From NCBI GenBank assembly GCA_021199595.1, contig JAJQHT010000046.1, positions 1 through 5,489 of the forward strand: a stretch of 5,489 nucleotides of DNA, given 5' to 3'. The notes beneath the pieces are model-generated. The model had not been told where the DNA came from. It was given only the letters and a program-made list of their open reading frames with translations, and did no database searches. A program made the position numbers and the translations under genes. The stretch comes from Oscillospiraceae bacterium (lineage in GTDB: Bacteria > Bacillota > Clostridia > Oscillospirales > Oscillospiraceae). How positions within the stretch are numbered: position 1 is the first letter of the stretch; each line of letters opens with the position of its first letter. This document shows, in pieces, positions 58 to 5,489 of the stretch.

Positions 58-114
58 AAGATACAAGGCTTTGCCAGGAGGTAATATCCGAGCGGCATAA
101 GCGGCATACAAGAT

Positions 115-155
115 AAAAAGCATCGACAGGTTATCGTAGCCTGTCGATGCTTTTT
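115..155. terminator. Bidirectional intrinsic terminator
   Basis: A perfect 16-bp inverted repeat: AAAAAGCATCGACAGG at 115-130 and its complement at 140-155, with a 9-nt loop. The GC-rich core is flanked by an A-run on one side and a T-run on the other, so it should terminate transcription in both directions. It sits between two convergent genes: the + strand gene ending at 57 and the minus-strand sirtuin ending at 180. Confidence 0.93.
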
Positions 156-179
156 GTCATAAAAGCAGTTCCGCCGTAC

Positions 180-1055
180 TTATTGGTCTGCCAGCATTGT
201 CAGCACGGAACCGATGTCATTGTCAATACAGATTGCCTGAGGCGCAATTTCCCGGGGACAAAAGGCTTCCCCAAGGTTAATGCAGGCATATACAGCCAGC
301 GGATTTTTCGCTGTCATCTGCCAGAAGGGGTATTTGATGATGACCGGGGTATTCGCTCCCACGCCAAGCTCTAGAAACAGAACGTGCATGGCTTCATGCC
401 GCCGGATAAAATCGCTGTAGCGCTTCGCCGCCTTGTGCCAGCCCGCATCCTCCACAAATGTGTCGTCGCATCGCAGATTCATGGTCATGGGCGCGCCGCA
501 GACCGGGCAGCGGGGGATCCGTTTCGAAGGAATTTTCATGTCCTTCTGTTCGGCGACCATTGTCCGAACGGCGTCCTCGTTGTCGTAGGTTTTGTCATGG
601 CAGGGCTTGGAGCATTGCCACAGGCCATAATCGCCCTGGGTATAGAACAGCCGCTTTTTATCAAATCCCGCAAGCTGGAATTGATGATCTACGTTGGTGG
701 TCAGTACGAAGTAGTCCTTGTTCTTCACCAGCTCCAGCAGGTCGGCATAAGGCTTTCCAACGCCCGCCTCATAGCGGTTGATCAGGATGTTCCGCGACCA
801 CCACGCCCAGTATTCCTCCAGACATTCAAAGGAGTAGAACCCGCCGGAATACATATCAGTGATGCCGTATTTTCTGTGAAAATCCGCAAAGGTCTTTTCA
901 AACCGCTCCCCGCTGTAGCGCATTCCTGCGGAGGTAGACAGTCCTGCCCCGGCGCCGATAACAATGGCGTCAGCTGTTTCCAGCTCATGCTTCAGCCGGT
1001 CGATATTATCTGAGAAGATTTTGGTAGATTTGTCGGTCGCTGTCTTTGAAAACAT
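180..1055 (-). CDS. Class M sirtuin (SirTM), NAD-dependent protein ADP-ribosyltransferase
   Basis: 291 aa, close to the usual SirTM length. The Rossmann NAD site is GAGAGLS at residues 34-40, followed by TSAGMRYSGERF. The catalytic region reads LTTNVDHQFQLAGF with Asn121, then FYTQGDYGLWQC, where Gln140 stands in place of the HG histidine of deacetylating sirtuins; this is the hallmark of class M. A four-cysteine zinc site is visible at C148, C152, C183 and C186. Characterised SirTMs of Staphylococcus and Streptococcus mono-ADP-ribosylate lipoylated GcvH-L and lack deacetylase activity; ADP-ribosyl transfer here is inferred from that family. The start ATG (1053-1055) has GAGG nine bases upstream. 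The first 50 bases overlap the end of the macrodomain gene, implying translational coupling of writer and eraser. It is the last gene of the operon, before the terminator at 115-155. No gcvH-L or lplA is visible nearby, so the substrate is unknown. Confidence 0.95.
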   Translation of the reverse strand: MFSKTATDKSTKIFSDNIDRLKHELETADAIVIGAGAGLSTSAGMRYSGERFEKTFADFHRKYGITDMYSGGFYSFECLEEYWAWWSRNILINRYEAGVGKPYADLLELVKNKDYFVLTTNVDHQFQLAGFDKKRLFYTQGDYGLWQCSKPCHDKTYDNEDAVRTMVAEQKDMKIPSKRIPRCPVCGAPMTMNLRCDDTFVEDAGWHKAAKRYSDFIRRHEAMHVLFLELGVGANTPVIIKYPFWQMTAKNPLAVYACINLGEAFCPREIAPQAICIDNDIGSVLTMLADQ

Positions 1056-1779
1056 TGAAAATTACCTCGATTTCGCTGTGAGTTTGTTTCCTGTACTCCT
1101 TCACGGTGCTGACCGCGATTTCCGCCGCCTTATCGCTGGGAAAGTGAAATACCCCGGTGGAGATGCAGCAGAAGGCGACGCTTTGAATTTTATTCTGCTC
1201 CGCCAGCGCCAGGCAGGAGTGATAGCAGGAGGCCAGAAGCTCCCTGTCCTCGGCTGTGAGCCGGGAGCCGACGACAGGGCCGACGGTGTGCAGCACATAA
1301 TCGCAGGGGAGATTGAACGCCGACGTTATTTTCGCTCCGCCTGTCTCTTCCTCGCGTCCCTGCCGTTCCATCAGCTCCGCGCAGGCGGCGCGAAGCTGAA
1401 CGCCCGCATAGGTATGAATCGTGTTGTCGATGCAGCTGTGGTTGGGGCGGAAGCAGCCGAGCATCTGGGAGTTGGCGGCGTTGACGATGGCTCCGCAGCG
1501 AAGGGTGGTAATGTCGCCCTGCCAGAGATAGAGGCCCTCCTGTAGCGGCGCCAGGTCGGCGATGTCGGTAATCCCTTTCTGCCGGGTTTCCTCCTGCAAA
1601 TAGGCGTCCTGTATTTCCAGAAACTCCGCGCTGACAGGCGCTGGCATCCGCACGTTGAAAAGCGCCCGCAGAAGCTGTTTTTGCTGCTGTTCGTCCGCGG
1701 GTATTTCCATGTCCCGATACTGCGCCTCCTCTGCGAGAAGCGCGCGAATCAGGTAAATTCTGCGTTCGTTCTGGGTCAT
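1006..1779 (-). CDS. Zinc-type macrodomain protein, probable ADP-ribosyl hydrolase
   Basis: 257 aa from the ATG at 1777-1779. That start has AGAGG six bases upstream and begins MTQNERRIYL; longer in-frame starts would run deep into the ferredoxin gene. Residues 1-80 form the helical N-terminal extension typical of SirTM-linked macrodomains. The macrodomain then begins with YLWQGDIT (D89), followed by AIVNAANSQMLG (N100 and N103), LHTVGP and the diphosphate loop CISTGVFHFP (206-214). The insertion GCFRPNHSC (C109, H114, C116) matches the metal-ligand motif of the zinc-containing macrodomain subfamily. Family members remove ADP-ribose placed by the partner SirTM, so this is the likely eraser. 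Its ATG lies 2 nt after the stop of the ferredoxin gene and its end overlaps sirT by 50 nt, which would favour coordinated production of the three proteins. Confidence 0.94.
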   Translation of the reverse strand: MTQNERRIYLIRALLAEEAQYRDMEIPADEQQQKQLLRALFNVRMPAPVSAEFLEIQDAYLQEETRQKGITDIADLAPLQEGLYLWQGDITTLRCGAIVNAANSQMLGCFRPNHSCIDNTIHTYAGVQLRAACAELMERQGREEETGGAKITSAFNLPCDYVLHTVGPVVGSRLTAEDRELLASCYHSCLALAEQNKIQSVAFCCISTGVFHFPSDKAAEIAVSTVKEYRKQTHSEIEVIFNVFKDSDRQIYQNLLR

Positions 1780-1781
1780 GG

Positions 1782-2213
1782 TTATCCTCTCTTTTCGATG
1801 GTCTGCTTCGGGCAGATTTCCGCGCAGTGCCCGCAGTGGAGACAGCGGCTCTGGTCGATGACCACTGGCTTGGAGGAGATGTCGATACACTTCTGAGGGC
1901 AGACGGAATAGCACAGCTTGCAGCCAATGCACTTATCGCCCACAAAATAACCGCTTGCCACCGCCTCCGGCTGACCGATCACAATGCTGTCCCTTGTCAC
2001 ATGGGCCGGGTCGCTGATGTCGAAGTATTCCCCGCTGGCCTCGGACAGATGAAAAACCTCCAGGGCGGAGCGGGTATCGCCGGGATAAATATCCTGCATA
2101 TAGGGATGCTTTTCAATGACGCGGGTCTGGGGATGGCCGTCCGAACCGATGGTGGCGACGGTGGTGGAGTGGATGTCCTCCACCAGCATTTTTAAATAAT
2201 CGTTCCCATTCAT
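1782..2213 (-). CDS. Truncated PPOX-fold / two-[4Fe-4S] ferredoxin fusion protein
   Basis: 143 aa. Residues 1-30 resemble the first strands of a pyridoxamine-phosphate-oxidase-like FMN barrel (YLKMLVEDIHSTTVATIGSDG). Residues 34-80 resemble its last part (KHPYMQDIYPGDTRSALEVF, then GEYFDIS). Residues 90-143 carry two complete CxxCxxCxxxCP motifs (C95/C98/C101/C105 and C124/C127/C130/C134) for two [4Fe-4S] clusters. From memory, full-length relatives are about 210-220 aa, so about 70 residues of the middle barrel, including much of the flavin site, appear to be missing in frame around residues 31-33. The protein may work as a plain electron carrier, or may use FMN held by the neighbouring PPOX protein. 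The start ATG (2211-2213) has GGAGG ten bases upstream. It is the second gene of the operon and ends 2 nt before the macrodomain ATG. The ferredoxin call is firm; the redox partner is unknown. Confidence 0.9.
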   Translation of the reverse strand: MNGNDYLKMLVEDIHSTTVATIGSDGHPQTRVIEKHPYMQDIYPGDTRSALEVFHLSEASGEYFDISDPAHVTRDSIVIGQPEAVASGYFVGDKCIGCKLCYSVCPQKCIDISSKPVVIDQSRCLHCGHCAEICPKQTIEKRG

Positions 2214-2240
2214 ATGGTATCGACCTCCATTTTGTCATAA

Positions 2241-2280
2241 GGGAGCGCCCAACGGGCGAGTATGACCGCCGGGCGCTCCC
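2241..2280. terminator. Intercistronic hairpin, possible attenuator or partial terminator
   Basis: A perfect 10-bp inverted repeat, GGGAGCGCCC at 2241-2250 and GGGCGCTCCC at 2271-2280. A second stem, GGCG 2255-2258 with CGCC 2267-2270, could extend it. It lies in the 90-nt gap between the PPOX gene and the ferredoxin gene. On the minus strand the stem is followed by TTATGACAAAATGG, not a clean T-run, so termination is probably partial. It could instead set the ratio of PPOX to downstream transcripts or protect the 3' end of the PPOX message. Genes on both sides are on the minus strand. Confidence 0.6.
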
Positions 2281-2303
2281 GAAATTGCGTGCTTTGCCGA
2301 AAA

Positions 2304-2699
2304 TCAGAACTCGTAAGGCGGGTTGCCGGAGAAGTCCGCAATCACGCCATGAGCGTTATTCAGGTAGAACACCTCGAAGATGGGGTTGTCGGCGGTCTGA
2401 TACTGGCCCTTCACGATAGGATTCTGGATGCACATCTCCTTGGCAGCCATGTTGTTTTCAAACACGGCCTTCCCGTGCAGACGAATCCAGGCATAGGCCG
2501 GGCTGGACACGGAAATTTCGATCTCCGGGTTTTCCTGCATATCCTTGTATACGTCCTTGGTGTTGTTGGTGCAGAACCACAGCTTGCCTTCCAGCTCCCC
2601 GGCGAACATGAACGGACGGCACTTGGCCTTTCCGTCGCGGCCAACCGTGGCCAGATACTGAACAGGATTCTCGTTCAAAAATTCGATGACTTTCTCCAT
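2304..2699 (-). CDS. Pyridoxamine 5'-phosphate oxidase-like FMN-binding protein
   Basis: 131 aa, a typical size for the small single-domain PPOX-like (split-barrel) family. It opens MEKVIEFLNENPVQYLATVGRDGKAKCRPF, the usual first strands, then continues KLWFCTNNTKDVYKDMQENP (about 40-58), the family's 'flavin loop plus helix' signature, and IRLHGKAVFE (72-81). Such proteins bind FMN, sometimes F420 or haem, and reduce or sequester small molecules; the substrate cannot be read from sequence. The ATG at 2697-2699 is preferred because GGAGG lies eight bases upstream. An in-frame TTG at 2712-2714 overlaps that ribosome binding site and is unlikely to be used. It is the first gene of the minus-strand operon, transcribed from the promoter at 2783-2811 and divergent from the HxlR regulator, which probably controls it. 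Confidence 0.93.
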   Translation of the reverse strand: MEKVIEFLNENPVQYLATVGRDGKAKCRPFMFAGELEGKLWFCTNNTKDVYKDMQENPEIEISVSSPAYAWIRLHGKAVFENNMAAKEMCIQNPIVKGQYQTADNPIFEVFYLNNAHGVIADFSGNPPYEF

Positions 2700-2733
2700 G
2701 ATGATTGCCTCCAAATGATAGATTTTGCGATGC

Positions 2734-2769
2734 GGGAAATGCTTTGCCGGAAAACATCTTGCATTTCCC
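2734..2769 (-). promoter_or_regulatory. Leader hairpin upstream of the PPOX operon
   Basis: A perfect 9-bp inverted repeat, GGGAAATGC at 2734-2742 and GCATTTCCC at 2761-2769, with an 18-nt loop. It would fold near the 5' end of the minus-strand transcript predicted to start around 2775. One arm touches a strong GGAGGG sequence (2768-2773) that faces an out-of-frame ATG at 2755-2757. It might affect message stability or translation; no ligand class is recognised. Confidence 0.4.
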
Positions 2770-2787
2770 TCCTGCTGTATCTATAAT
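2759..2787 (+). promoter_or_regulatory. Sigma-A-type promoter for the HxlR regulator gene
   Basis: TTGCAT (-35) at 2759-2764 and a consensus TATAAT (-10) at 2782-2787 are separated by 17 bp. The start of transcription would be near 2794, giving a leader of about 70 nt before the ATG at 2867. Both inverted repeats (2816-2829 and 2831-2852) then fall in the transcribed leader, a position suited to autorepression. Confidence 0.75.
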
Positions 2788-2811
2788 AAGGGTGTACAGA
2801 GAAATTGTAAA
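2783..2811 (-). promoter_or_regulatory. Sigma-A-type promoter for the PPOX-ferredoxin-macro-SirTM operon
   Basis: Read on the minus strand, TTTACA (-35, 2806-2811) and TATTAT (-10, 2783-2788) are spaced by 17 bp, with a start near 2775. The -10 box overlaps that of the opposing regulator promoter almost completely, so the two RNA polymerases should compete. The palindromes lie just upstream of its -35, where a bound regulator could activate. Confidence 0.7.
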
Positions 2812-2815
2812 GTAA

Positions 2816-2829
2816 GCACAATATTGTGC
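2816..2829. promoter_or_regulatory. 14-bp perfect palindrome, candidate operator
   Basis: GCACAATATTGTGC is a perfect palindrome lying 4 bp upstream of the -35 box of the minus-strand promoter and downstream of the start of the regulator transcript. A dimeric winged-helix regulator such as the adjacent HxlR protein would suit such a site. Binding is inferred, not shown. Confidence 0.5.
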
Positions 2830-2830
2830 C

Positions 2831-2852
2831 ATAGTTACCTTTTGGAAACTAT
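2831..2852. promoter_or_regulatory. Imperfect inverted repeat, candidate HxlR operator
   Basis: Two 9-bp arms, ATAGTTACC and GGAAACTAT, match at 8 of 9 positions around a TTTT centre. The repeat ends directly at the AGGAGG ribosome binding site (2853-2858) of the HxlR gene, so bound protein would block the gene's own transcription. Similar GTTAC/GTAAC-type repeats are common next to HxlR-family genes in Firmicutes. Confidence 0.55.
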
Positions 2853-2866
2853 AGGAGGAATTCGTC

Positions 2867-3220
2867 ATGGAAACGGAAAAAGACATTCAGGCAAAACCCG
2901 CCAGGGAATTGCCCGCCTGTCCCGTAGAAACTACATTAACCCTGATCAGCAATAAGTGGAAGGTGCTGATTCTCCGCGACCTGATGCCGGGAACAAAGCG
3001 ATTTGGAGAGCTGAAAAAATCCATCGGCTATGTGTCCCAAAAGGTGCTGACGGCGCAGCTGCGCCAGATGGAGGAAAGCGGCCTTTTGACTCGCACGGTA
3101 TTTCCTGAGGTTCCTCCCCATGTGGAATATACCCTGACGGCGCTTGGCTACAGCCTGAAGCCGGTCCTGGACGCCATGTGGGATTGGGGAGAAAACTACA
3201 AGGCGCAGAATGGGCAGTAA
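2867..3220 (+). CDS. HxlR-family winged-helix transcriptional regulator
   Basis: 117 aa, full length for the family. The pattern is standard: CPVETTLTLISNKWKVLILRDL (18-39), the recognition region RFGELKKSIGYVSQKVLTAQLRQMEESGLL (45-74), the wing RTVFPEVPPHVEYTLTALG (76-94) and a C-terminal dimerisation helix to residue 117. The only cysteine is Cys18 just before the helix-turn-helix, the position used for thiol sensing in relatives such as HypR and YodB of Bacillus subtilis, so response to electrophiles or oxidants is plausible but inferred. The ATG at 2867-2869 has AGGAGG eight bases upstream. The gene diverges from the PPOX operon and overlaps its control region, making it the probable local regulator. 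Its own operator-like repeat abuts its ribosome binding site. A terminator follows at 3226-3276. Confidence 0.95.
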   Translation: METEKDIQAKPARELPACPVETTLTLISNKWKVLILRDLMPGTKRFGELKKSIGYVSQKVLTAQLRQMEESGLLTRTVFPEVPPHVEYTLTALGYSLKPVLDAMWDWGENYKAQNGQ

Positions 3221-3225
3221 AACAC

Positions 3226-3276
3226 GAACCCCGGCACCTATGGCCGCAGCTTTTGCGGTCTGTGTGTCGGGGGTTC
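3226..3276. terminator. Bidirectional terminator between convergent genes
   Basis: GAACCCC at 3226-3232 pairs with GGGGTTC at 3270-3276. The stem continues through GCAC/GTGT-type pairs, and an inner hairpin is formed by CCGCA 3244-3248 and TGCGG 3254-3258. T-rich sequence follows on each strand (ATGTTTTGTGTTTC on +, GTGTTTTACTG on minus). It ends both the HxlR gene (stop 3218-3220) and the hydrolase gene (stop 3291-3293). Confidence 0.82.
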
Positions 3277-3290
3277 ATGTTTTGTGTTTC

Positions 3291-4265
3291 TTATGCCAGG
3301 TAGCGGCCAAAAAATTCGCTTATCTTGTCAAACGGGATTACGTCCATTCTGTCATAGAGATCTGTGTGAACTGCGCCCGGAATGAGCATAAGCTCCTTGT
3401 TATCGCCGGTCAGCTTCTGGTAGGCGTCCTTGCTGAAATAGCAGGAGTGAGCCTTTTCGCCGTGAATGATAAGAACGGCACTGCGAATTTCCTGGCTGTA
3501 CTGCAGGATAGGCATATTCATAAAGGACTGACAGCCGGTCACGTTCCAGCCGCCGTTGGAGTTTAAGGAGCGGGGGTGATAGCCGCGCTTGGTCTTATAA
3601 TAGTCGTAATAGTCCTTCACGAAAAACGGCGCGTCCTCCGGCAGCGGGTCTACCACGCCGCCGCCCAGGGCGTAGCTGCCGTTTTTGTAATCGGCGGTGC
3701 GCTGGGCGCAGAGGGCCTTGCGCTTTTCATATCTGGCCTCCTCGCTGTCCTCGCTGTCAAAGTAGCCGTTGGCGTTTACGCGGGTCATGTCGTACATGGT
3801 GGAGGCAACCGTCGCTTTGATGCGGGTATCCAGCGCCGCTGCGTTCAGCGCCATGCCGCCCCAGCCGCAGATGCCGATGATGCCGATGCGGTTCGGATCG
3901 ACGTTTTCCTGCACGGACAGGAAATCCACCGCCGCCATAAAATCCTCCGTGTTGATGTCGGGAGAGGCCATGTAACGGGGCTGCCCGCCGCTCTCGCCGG
4001 TATAGGAGGGGTCAAATGCAATCGTCAGAAAGTCCTTCTCCGCCATCGTCTGCGCATATAGGCCGGAGGACAGCTCCTTCACCGCGCCGAAGGGGCCGCA
4101 CACGGCAATGGCGGGGAGCTGCCCAACCGCATTCTTCGGCTCGTAGAGATCAGCCGCCAGGGTGATGCCGTATCGGTTGTGGAACGTCACCTTCCTGTGG
4201 TTCACCTTCTCGCTCTGCGGAAAAACCTTGTCCCACTCAGTTGTCAGATTCAATTTTTCTTCCAT
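3291..4265 (-). CDS. Alpha/beta hydrolase (YcjY/dienelactone-hydrolase-like)
   Basis: 324 aa with no signal peptide. The core fold is visible: LPAIAVCGPFGAVKE (50-64, first strand and oxyanion region), FLTIAFDPSYTGESGG (79-94), a nucleophile elbow IGIIGICGWGGMALNAAA (127-144), VLIIHGEKAHS (264-274) and the catalytic-histidine segment LIPGAVHTDLYD (294-305, His300). Residues 160-250 form a cap-like insertion. At the elbow the usual Gly-x-Ser-x-Gly serine is absent; Cys133 is the candidate nucleophile, and Trp135 occupies the place where related proteins with a CASGG sequence have serine. The natural substrate is unknown. The ATG at 4263-4265 has GAGGG seven bases upstream. It lies 46 nt after the cyclophilin-like gene, probably in the same transcript, and is the last gene before the terminator at 3226-3276. 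Confidence 0.92.
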   Translation of the reverse strand: MEEKLNLTTEWDKVFPQSEKVNHRKVTFHNRYGITLAADLYEPKNAVGQLPAIAVCGPFGAVKELSSGLYAQTMAEKDFLTIAFDPSYTGESGGQPRYMASPDINTEDFMAAVDFLSVQENVDPNRIGIIGICGWGGMALNAAALDTRIKATVASTMYDMTRVNANGYFDSEDSEEARYEKRKALCAQRTADYKNGSYALGGGVVDPLPEDAPFFVKDYYDYYKTKRGYHPRSLNSNGGWNVTGCQSFMNMPILQYSQEIRSAVLIIHGEKAHSCYFSKDAYQKLTGDNKELMLIPGAVHTDLYDRMDVIPFDKISEFFGRYLA

Positions 4266-4311
4266 AATGATTCCCTCGCTTTTTGAGTTTATTGCAAGAA
4301 TATGTTGACGC

Positions 4312-4659
4312 TTAATTCAGAGAAAAGATGACTGTTACATCACCGCTGCCCAGCGCGTCTTCCCAGCCGGTCAGGTCGTCGATATGGCCCAGACGGGTAT
4401 AACTCCAGGCGTTTGAGCCGTAGAAAATCACAATCTGATTGTCGTTATATAAGACAATATCTCCCGCCTGCGTTGTTGTCTGGCTGTTGCTGCTGGGAAG
4501 GCTGGTTCCAAGCGCACCGACCTTTTCAAAGCCGGAATAATCACGCATCTCGATCACAATAGGAGCGTCCTCCATCATTTCAACAAGGGCGTCCACGGCT
4601 TCATTTTCTTCCAGCGAGTCTGTAAAAAAAATGTTGCCGATTAGCACATTCAGTTTCAT
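4312..4659 (-). CDS. Cyclophilin-like fold protein, separated from its lipoprotein leader by a stop codon
   Basis: 115 aa. MKLNVLIGNIFFTDSLEENEAVDALVEMM, then VIEMRDYSGFEKVGALGTSLP, AGDIVLYNDNQIVIFYGSNAW and YTRLGHID match the bacterial cyclophilin-like domain, a small beta-barrel commonly found in secreted or lipid-anchored proteins beside flavodoxin-like genes. Isomerase activity has not been established for this group as far as I know. The reading frame continues upstream for ten codons to a TAA (4690-4692) and then into the lipoprotein leader at 4690-4890, so the ancestral product was probably one lipoprotein of about 190 residues. GGAGG five bases before this ATG (4657-4659) could permit reinitiation, which would leave the domain in the cytoplasm. 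Confidence 0.85.
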   Translation of the reverse strand: MKLNVLIGNIFFTDSLEENEAVDALVEMMEDAPIVIEMRDYSGFEKVGALGTSLPSSNSQTTTQAGDIVLYNDNQIVIFYGSNAWSYTRLGHIDDLTGWEDALGSGDVTVIFSLN

Positions 4660-4677
4660 AGCTTCCTCCGTGCTGGC

Positions 4678-4710
4678 GGTCGATTCTGCTTACTGCTGGG
4701 TGGATTCAGC
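4678..4710 (-). repeat. Imperfect tandem repeat around the interrupting stop
   Basis: On the minus strand GCTGAATCCACC (4699-4710) and GCAGAATCGACC (4678-4689) match at 10 of 12 positions with a 21-nt period, both encoding Ala-Glu-Ser-Thr. The TAA lies between them directly after two CAG codons. The pattern fits expansion of a low-complexity linker, with the stop arising inside it. Confidence 0.5.
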
Positions 4711-4890
4711 CTTCACTGCTGGTGCTTCCCAATCATCCGAGTTCCGCTCATCTTTGCCCGATGTTTTCGGTTCCGAGGTTTCAGAAATCCGTTCTGCGTC
4801 TGTGTTCGCGCCCTGTGAACCGGCACAGCTGACCAGAGATAACAAAACGCATAACAGAAGGAGGCACCCGATCCATCGCTTTTGGCACAT
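4690..4890 (-). CDS. Lipoprotein signal peptide and linker, truncated by an in-frame TAA
   Basis: 66 aa from the ATG at 4888-4890. The sequence MCQKRW, a hydrophobic run IGCLLLLCVLLSL and the lipobox LVSC (Cys22) make a clear lipoprotein signal peptide. The rest is a polar linker rich in Ser, Glu, Asp and Lys, ending AESTQQ. That linker is followed in the same frame by TAA, ten more codons (AESTASTEEA) and the cyclophilin-like domain, so this is very likely the front of an interrupted gene. This start sits 4 nt after the stop of the flavodoxin-fold gene (TAAGAAAATG), suggesting coupling. An ATG at 4915-4917 would add nine residues before the signal peptide and overlap the upstream gene; I consider it less likely. 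Confidence 0.75.
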   Translation of the reverse strand: MCQKRWIGCLLLLCVLLSLVSCAGSQGANTDAERISETSEPKTSGKDERNSDDWEAPAVKAESTQQ

Positions 4891-4894
4891 TTTC

Positions 4895-5434
4895 TTATAT
4901 GCTTCGGCCCAGATCATATGCCTGCCGCAAGGCAGGATGTCCCTGGATCGCGCCCTTCACATCAACGCCGCCGGCAAAAACTGTGCCGGCAAAATGTGCC
5001 TTTGGGAAGCACTCGATCCAGCCCTGTAATCCCGACTCCGCTCTTGCCGGAACCTCTGGTTCGTTTTCCGCGGCGGCGGTAAGCAGGTAAACGTCCCGGA
5101 AGGTATAGTCTGAATCATAAAGCGGATTCGCCCGATCCAGCATCGTCTTCATTTGGCCGCACATTTCGTAATAATAAATCGGGGTTGCGAAAACCAGCAC
5201 ATCTGCGTAACGCATCTTCTGCGCAATTTCGTCTGCATCGTCATGAATGATGCAGCGATGTGTACGCAGGCAGGAAAGGCAGCCCCTGCAGAAGCCGATG
5301 CTTTTGTCATACAGGCAGACTTTTTCCACCTCGTTTCCGCCCTCTTTTGCGCCGCGGGCAAGTTCATCTGCCAGCGTTTCGGAATTGCCGCCCTTGCGGG
5401 GACCTGTGCAAATCACCAATACTTTCTTAGACAT
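4895..5434 (-). CDS. Flavodoxin-fold NADPH-dependent FMN reductase / iron-sulfur flavoprotein-like
   Basis: 179 aa. It begins with a beta strand and flavin-phosphate loop, KVLVICTGPRKGGNSETLADEL (4-25). The segment IGFCRGCLSCLRTHRCIIHDDADEI (46-70) holds C49, C52, C55 and C61 in CX2CX2CX5C spacing, which matches the compact cluster motif of iron-sulfur flavoproteins. The flavin-ring loop ATPIYYYEMCGQMKTMLDR (83-101) is typical of the family. Such proteins carry FMN and pass electrons from NAD(P)H or ferredoxin to small acceptors; the acceptor here is unknown. The ATG at 5432-5434 is chosen because GGAGG lies eight bases upstream; another in-frame ATG at 5438-5440 is only two bases from that site. 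Its stop (4895-4897) lies 4 nt before the lipoprotein ATG. Confidence 0.92.
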   Translation of the reverse strand: MSKKVLVICTGPRKGGNSETLADELARGAKEGGNEVEKVCLYDKSIGFCRGCLSCLRTHRCIIHDDADEIAQKMRYADVLVFATPIYYYEMCGQMKTMLDRANPLYDSDYTFRDVYLLTAAAENEPEVPARAESGLQGWIECFPKAHFAGTVFAGGVDVKGAIQGHPALRQAYDLGRSI

Positions 5435-5489
5435 TTGCATTTCCTCCAGAGAAATTCTTCGTTTCGATTGCCGGAATGCCGCCGAGAAC
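5427..5489 (-). CDS. Possible C-terminal end of an upstream gene (partial)
   Basis: On the minus strand, 20 open codons run from the window edge to a TAA at 5427-5429, with a plausible tail VLGGIPAIETKNFSGGNANV. The stop overlaps the start of the flavodoxin-fold gene by 8 nt, as is common within operons. The other two frames are also open over this short stretch, so the call is tentative and no family can be named. Confidence 0.35.
   Translation of the reverse strand, partial: VLGGIPAIETKNFSGGNANV

Follow-up and report, generated by a model that had tools for sequence, protein, structure and literature searches.

The window analysed here is a stretch of 5,489 bases, the entire contig JAJQHT010000046.1 of an Oscillospiraceae bacterium known from metagenome sequence; its fragmented metagenome-assembled genome (GCA_021199595.1) comprises 1.67 Mb in 335 contigs and is 65% complete. 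It encodes the class M sirtuin SirTM and a zinc-macrodomain (Zn-macro) protein in the company of an HxlR-family regulator, a PPOX protein and a PPOX-ferredoxin (PPOX-Fd). We tentatively read this set as a redox-type extended SirTM operon, in which ADP-ribosylation would be directed at a redox protein of non-lipoyl type, HxlR would serve as a thiol switch and PPOX-Fd, where intact, would be the first candidate target. In the open reading frames the HxlR gene on the plus strand diverges from a minus-strand run of PPOX, PPOX-Fd, Zn-macro and SirTM. PPOX-Fd ends 2 nt before the Zn-macro start on the same strand, with PPOX further upstream, and the Zn-macro and SirTM genes overlap by 50 nt. An earlier note on this DNA had given the same genes, order and strands, which hold with the corrections described below.

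According to excerpts of the papers cited here and below, the extended SirTM operon of Staphylococcus and Streptococcus comprises gcvH-L, macro, sirTM, lplA2, OYE and LLM (Rack 2015, PMC4518038). The window shares with it the SirTM and Zn-macro families, the overlapping genes, flavin-type redox neighbours and the link to redox, but it has HxlR, PPOX and PPOX-Fd in place of gcvH-L, lplA2, OYE and LLM. Pairs of SirTM and macro without gcvH-L and lplA form a class already described (PMC4518038, PMC11490716), lone SirTM/macro operons having been reported in 2015 and SirTMs recorded in Clostridiaceae and Lachnospiraceae among others (PMC4518038); the absence of lipoyl genes is therefore not novel in itself. 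Like those minimal operons (MorMacro and the lone pairs of E. faecalis and Treponema pedis; PMC11490716), the window pair stands without lipoyl genes. Unlike them, it has co-operonic partners, PPOX-Fd and PPOX upstream, and lies inside a redox cassette linked to HxlR, parts of which are found again in Clostridia and, together with Rrf2, at two further loci (L099 and L105). What appears new from the gene content is thus the clostridial company of the SirTM pair, and among the papers listed by searches of open literature none connects SirTM with HxlR or PPOX-Fd. In 2024 GcvH-L was still given as the sole known SirTM substrate, and targets outside the lipoyl operon were called elusive (excerpts of PMC11490716). 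Gene linkage in more than 100 mostly clostridial loci now offers a short list of candidates (PPOX-Fd, PPOX, nitroreductase and an ACGX peptide), predicts a regulator with its operator and speaks against a general need for lipoyl chemistry in these sirtuins.

The SirTM of the window (291 aa; 180..1055, minus strand) matched the Streptococcus pyogenes SirTM 5a3a in phmmer at 1.9e-75. It carries the class M trio N121, Q140 and R195 (Asn118, Gln137 and Arg192 in S. pyogenes), with Gln in place of the catalytic His, and the motif GVGx[NT]TP as GVGANTP at residue 231, both of them named SirTM features (PMC4518038); its cysteines are at 148, 152, 183 and 186. Among the aligned SirTM sequences, window included, N121 was present in 196/196 and Q140 and R195 in 193/196. 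The Zn-macro protein (257 aa; 1006..1779, minus strand), of the protein-ADP-ribose hydrolase family, scored 371 bits against NF003163 (cut-off 272) and matched the solved Zn-macros 5kiv and 8rsi at 1e-78 and 6.5e-78. These matches begin at the first residues and so cover the N-terminal extension, and the zinc loop Cx4HxC (C109/H114/C116) is kept in all 153 distinct labelled macro sequences, the window's among them. Judged by their defining residues, both proteins are complete family members, a predicted writer and a predicted eraser of protein ADP-ribosylation. PADLOC models gave no match for either, and an anti-phage defence role was ruled out on that ground. Two 510-aa proteins (P0002 and P0018) resemble, by eye, a partial SirTM copy fused to a complete one. 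At three loci (L209, L210 and L211, in genomes G175, G329 and G195) SirTM-like sirtuins that have diverged to 33-40% identity form tandem arrays of two or three genes, next to a divergent Rrf2-like regulator; no macrodomain is labelled there, and in some members a TNxD motif cannot be recognised.

SirTM was found in 34 of 60 relatives (E<=1e-3) and in 94 of the 394 genomes of the window's order (E<=1e-20). Its neighbourhood was surveyed in two partly overlapping sets: the named loci, the top 80 among 593 confirmed ones and hence biased towards the window's kin, and an order sample of 80 regions fetched from 107 SirTM rows, of which 77 were counted, the other three being sirtuin arrays. Loci with less than 3.5 kb upstream were excluded (20/80 and 11/77), leaving 60 named and 66 order-sample loci; genes were called with a home-made codon-usage caller and home-made profiles, so that a miscalled gene terminates the operon run. 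Macro was in the SirTM run at 58/60 named and 55/66 order-sample loci, and PPOX-Fd at 28/60 and 21/66. Where PPOX-Fd was in the run it lay immediately upstream of macro in 21/21 order-sample and 24/28 named loci. HxlR was encoded on the opposite strand, no more than seven genes away, at 31/60 and 36/66 loci, and any HxlR, Rrf2 or listed partner at 53/60 and 44/66. The exact order HxlR<>PPOX>PPOX-Fd>Macro>SirTM occurred at only five loci, four of the 60 named (L066, L068, L084, L086) and one of the 66 order-sample loci (L144); the exact cassette is uncommon and its parts are recurrent. The earlier note had accepted that non-conservation of the PPOX and ferredoxin neighbours would refute it, an objection that fails since these parts recur in many loci.

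Linkage of PPOX-Fd and HxlR to SirTM is far above chance. Across the 394 genomes, 29 of 38 PPOX-Fd genes (E<=1e-30) lay within 2.5 kb of SirTM, and SirTM was present in 34 of 38 PPOX-Fd genomes versus 60 of 356 others (Fisher 1e-19). Within 20 genomes hand-picked from the 94 with SirTM, 17 of 31 HxlR genes (E<=1e-20) were within 6 kb of SirTM, versus 0.18 expected; a linked HxlR was present in 16 of these genomes, and three had no HxlR match.

Other cargo at SirTM loci comprised NAD(P)H-binding, Rrf2, nitroreductase, SnoaL, FMN reductase and DUF1848 genes, of which the nitroreductase, NAD(P)H-binding, FMN reductase and Rrf2 types are redox or redox-regulatory; at some loci the neighbours were plain housekeeping or unidentified genes. 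Between HxlR and the macro/SirTM pair a 263-aa family recurs (L061, 5788-6588; 20 members in the fetched loci), for which no Pfam or NCBIfam match was obtained. In two records titled Spirochaetales (L099 and L105), SnoaL-like, Rrf2-like, PPOX-Fd, Macro and SirTM genes stand in a row, which suggests transfer from Clostridia or binning errors. A cysteine peptide with ACGX repeats also shares one operon with a radical SAM/SPASM partner, nitroreductase and PPOX-Fd, mostly together with Macro-SirTM (L041 at 9706-11606, L113, L150, L154, L168, L176, L220, L225 and L226). These labels were checked against NCBIfam for L041 (TIGR04340 at 600 bits, cut-off 400; TIGR04341) and for the L113 peptide, the others being script labels. 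Of 245 genomes 9 had TIGR04340 above cut-off, 8 of them together with SirTM, and the open literature searched held no paper on ACGX with radical SAM.

The PPOX-Fd gene of the window (143 aa; 1782..2213, minus strand) has two intact 4Fe-4S motifs with Pfam Fer4 matches. Its relatives are about 202 aa long, a split-barrel PPOX domain being followed by the two motifs; the best Foldseek matches of an AlphaFold2 (AF2) model of one such relative were 2hhz and 2ig6. Alignment with five relatives revealed a clean 177-nt in-frame gap through the PPOX core of the window copy, which removes the nearly invariant FLTAKGK segment, and the length of 143 aa was unique to it among 120 listed of 1388 homologues. 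In its own AF2 model residues 1-60 have pLDDT 52-62 and the ferredoxin part about 90 or more, and strands of the 202-aa relative's model are missing, so that the FMN split barrel is incomplete. An ordinary PPOX-ferredoxin was thus ruled out for this copy by length, alignment and model. The deletion may be genuine or stem from faulty assembly; in the closest relative (L032), named Oscillospiraceae and with a 98% identical SirTM, the contig ends near the macro start before reaching PPOX-Fd and hence bears on neither a species trait nor a fault. The PPOX protein itself (131 aa; 2304..2699, minus strand) is of FMN split-barrel type, with a PNPOx_N match at 9.9e-12 and the NimC/NimA protein 2ig6 as closest solved relative (1.9e-20). 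The two FMN/Fe-S-type proteins of the earlier note are accordingly both present, but one of them has an internal deletion in its PPOX core.

The regulator (117 aa; 2867..3220, plus strand) belongs to the HxlR/DUF24 family (PF01638, 4.2e-33, 113 bits), with YybR 4a5m, YodB 5hs7 and HxlR 7bze as relatives, and has a single cysteine, Cys18, as the earlier note had stated. This is the conserved N-terminal Cys before the winged helix: of 49 sequences aligned, 42 have Cys at this position, 2 have Thr and 5 a gap, and by eye it aligns with HypR Cys14 and CatR Cys7, the redox cysteines of DUF24 sensors (PMC6943732). The B. subtilis HxlR, to which the window protein is alike in family and N-terminal Cys, senses formaldehyde by a mechanism that requires Lys at Cys+2 for a Cys-Lys bridge (PMC7835342). 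The window protein instead has Val20 there, and formaldehyde sensing is unlikely. With Val at Cys+2 and Cys18 at the DUF24 sensor position, a predicted sensor of thiol or electrophile stress acting through Cys18 is the best inference. The surroundings resemble the B. subtilis HypR, YodB and CatR regulons as excerpted (PMC6943732), where a DUF24 regulator with an N-terminal Cys adjoins flavin/nitroreductase-type genes; the window differs from them in adding the ADP-ribosylation pair, and its sensing is predicted from sequence.

Between the divergent genes lies an inverted repeat, the predicted HxlR operator ATAGTTACC-N4-GGAAACTAT (2831..2852). Of 82 HxlR divergons 46 scored at least 14/18, a score that shuffled sequences reached in 3 of 410 cases and other divergent regions in 7 of 166; these figures are to be read with the pattern having been derived from the window, itself one of the 82, and with many of the loci being related. 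The repeat is shared also by loci such as L063 and L073, at which HxlR directly faces Macro-SirTM. The earlier note placed a promoter of the operon's own at its 5' end. The consensus scan does give a promoter-like pair, TTTACA-17-TATTAT (2783..2811, minus strand; 10/12), but argues for it only weakly, the window having 7 such sites versus 3.4 in shuffles. The repeat touches the -35 of a weaker promoter-like pair at 2832-2804.

In the mechanism that we tentatively favour, stress at Cys18 of HxlR would alter its binding to the 2831-2852 repeat and switch the operon on. PPOX and PPOX-Fd would then pass electrons in detoxification, and SirTM would ADP-ribosylate a redox protein, a tag that Zn-macro would strip off again, giving an on/off switch. 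Since the parts recur in many relatives, mostly without the known lipoyl target, the ADP-ribose tag likely controls electron-carrier proteins. The choice of target is the weakest step; linkage makes PPOX-Fd, where intact, the first candidate. A wider proposal for Clostridia, which we consider rather unlikely, is a lipoate-free switch: a cassette induced through HxlR as thiol sensor, in which SirTM would modify, and Zn-macro free, a flavin-ferredoxin carrier or, in sister operons, the ACGX peptide made by the radical SAM enzyme. If true, this would be the first class of SirTM substrates other than GcvH-L.

Several observations weigh against the redox-target reading. The operon run contains no PPOX-Fd at 32/60 named and 45/66 order-sample SirTM loci, so that this protein cannot be a universal substrate, and pairwise distances of SirTM and PPOX-Fd over 53 loci correlate weakly (r 0.23, a value reached in 0 of 999 permutations; r 0.41 for SirTM and macro). 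With these absences and this correlation, a universal PPOX-Fd substrate in tight co-evolution is unsupported. Among the nine unlinked PPOX-Fd genes, several stand in a like HxlR operon, either without an adjoining SirTM (L217, L220, L226) or with macro as the only member of the pair (L225 and, at a contig end, L218); L222 and L224 show no HxlR. In the window itself, most of the PPOX core of PPOX-Fd is gone. With the operator-like repeat located upstream of the better promoter-like pair, HxlR could activate or repress. A gcvH gene is present in the window genome, as a contig-end fragment, and in its five closest relatives (G031, G027, G015, G004 and G028, all with a full-length copy), with lplA in four of the six. 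Finally, when all over-cut-off GCV_H matches are counted, partial ones included (76 genomes), they fall in 24 of 94 SirTM genomes versus 52 of 300 others (p 0.10).

The alternative that fares best takes the redox genes as mere co-regulated stress genes and places the target of SirTM and Zn-macro elsewhere in the genome, in a protein common to all these bacteria. The absences and the weak distance correlation just given speak for it, as do the variation of cargo around a persisting macro and SirTM and the loci where HxlR directly faces Macro-SirTM with a like operator (L063, L073, L125). It leaves unaccounted for, however, the clustering of PPOX-Fd genes at SirTM loci far beyond chance and their position directly upstream of macro wherever the order sample has them, and we regard it as possible but doubtful.

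A second alternative takes canonical lipoylated GcvH of the glycine-cleavage system as the target in those lineages that have GcvH, the window's clade included. The earlier note was right that lipoyl carrier and ligase are absent from the operon: neither GcvH nor LplA, the marks of the lipoyl extended operon, occurred among the eight window open reading frames scanned, and in 180 loci a crude regular-expression motif scan, run with no control of its own, gave no small protein resembling GcvH. The genome survey covered GcvH and LplA as its lipoyl genes. It counted 34 genomes with a GCV_H match at E<1e-25, of 128 matching (76 over cut-off), and 100 with an LplA-B match at E<1e-20, of 109 matching; weak partial matches were read as presumed other biotinyl/lipoyl carriers or chance. 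GcvH was found in 11 of 94 SirTM genomes versus 23 of 300 others (p 0.29), or 12 of 94 with the window's own fragment (p 0.15), and LplA in 20 of 94 versus 80 of 300 (p 0.34). The GcvH trend is weakly positive and the association not significant. Full-length GcvH was missing from 82 of the 94 SirTM genomes (the window's own not among the 82), and 73 had neither GcvH nor LplA, in a set where completeness is 90% or higher and contamination 5% or lower for 89 of 94 genomes. One of the 11 GcvH and two of the 20 LplA genes share a contig with SirTM, at distances of 7, 10 and more than 600 kb; none was closer than 7 kb.

On the other side, the five closest relatives have lplA in four cases, and gene sizes at L227 and L229 fit a glycine-cleavage operon ordered gcvT-glyA fusion > gcvH > gcvPA > gcvPB > lplA > lpd. 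A glycine-cleavage-sized gene set also lies 7 kb from a distant, 33%-identical SirTM-like gene in G317. In the window's genus, full-length GcvH was found in 7 of 35 genomes, the window contributing a fragment and one genome a weak match, and LplA in 12 of 35. Yet by eye the GcvH of the L227/L229 clade keeps the canonical C-terminal stretch, which according to the excerpts of PMC4518038 would block access to the residues known to serve as acceptors in GcvH-L. No GcvH-L was found, and canonical-looking GcvH is available in the window's clade. The genome evidence thus argues with the earlier note against GcvH-L as the target, although the obvious candidate for its suggested substitute within the operon, PPOX-Fd, is internally deleted here and missing from many loci; since the clade has gcvH and mostly lplA elsewhere, a lipoyl protein encoded there may still be the target. 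For canonical GcvH itself we consider this quite unlikely. An 882-aa frame at the glycine-cleavage locus L234 (162-2810) reads by eye as a fusion of GcvT and serine hydroxymethyltransferase, and frames of the same length occur in L227, L231 and L237.

Decay of the operon in this strain is improbable: the 177-nt deletion through nearly invariant PPOX residues, unseen in the other 119 listed homologues, could be its sign, but the remaining operon genes look intact, frame and ferredoxin motifs are preserved, and the deletion may be an assembly fault on which the L032 contig cannot decide.

The bidirectional terminators that the earlier note placed on both sides would correspond to two inverted repeats, although a simple terminator scan lists neither. 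One, just past the SirTM stop (112..158) and likely the bidirectional terminator of the operon's 3' end, has an A-run and a T-run, 22-nt arms that are 91% complementary and a 3-nt loop. The other, terminator-like, lies at the 3' end of HxlR (3219..3283), towards a convergent next gene, and has 14-nt arms, 93% complementary, with 37 nt between them. Beyond the operon the minus strand of 3291-5440 encodes an alpha/beta hydrolase (UilS-like, below cut-off), a cyclophilin-like protein and a flavodoxin-like FMN reductase.

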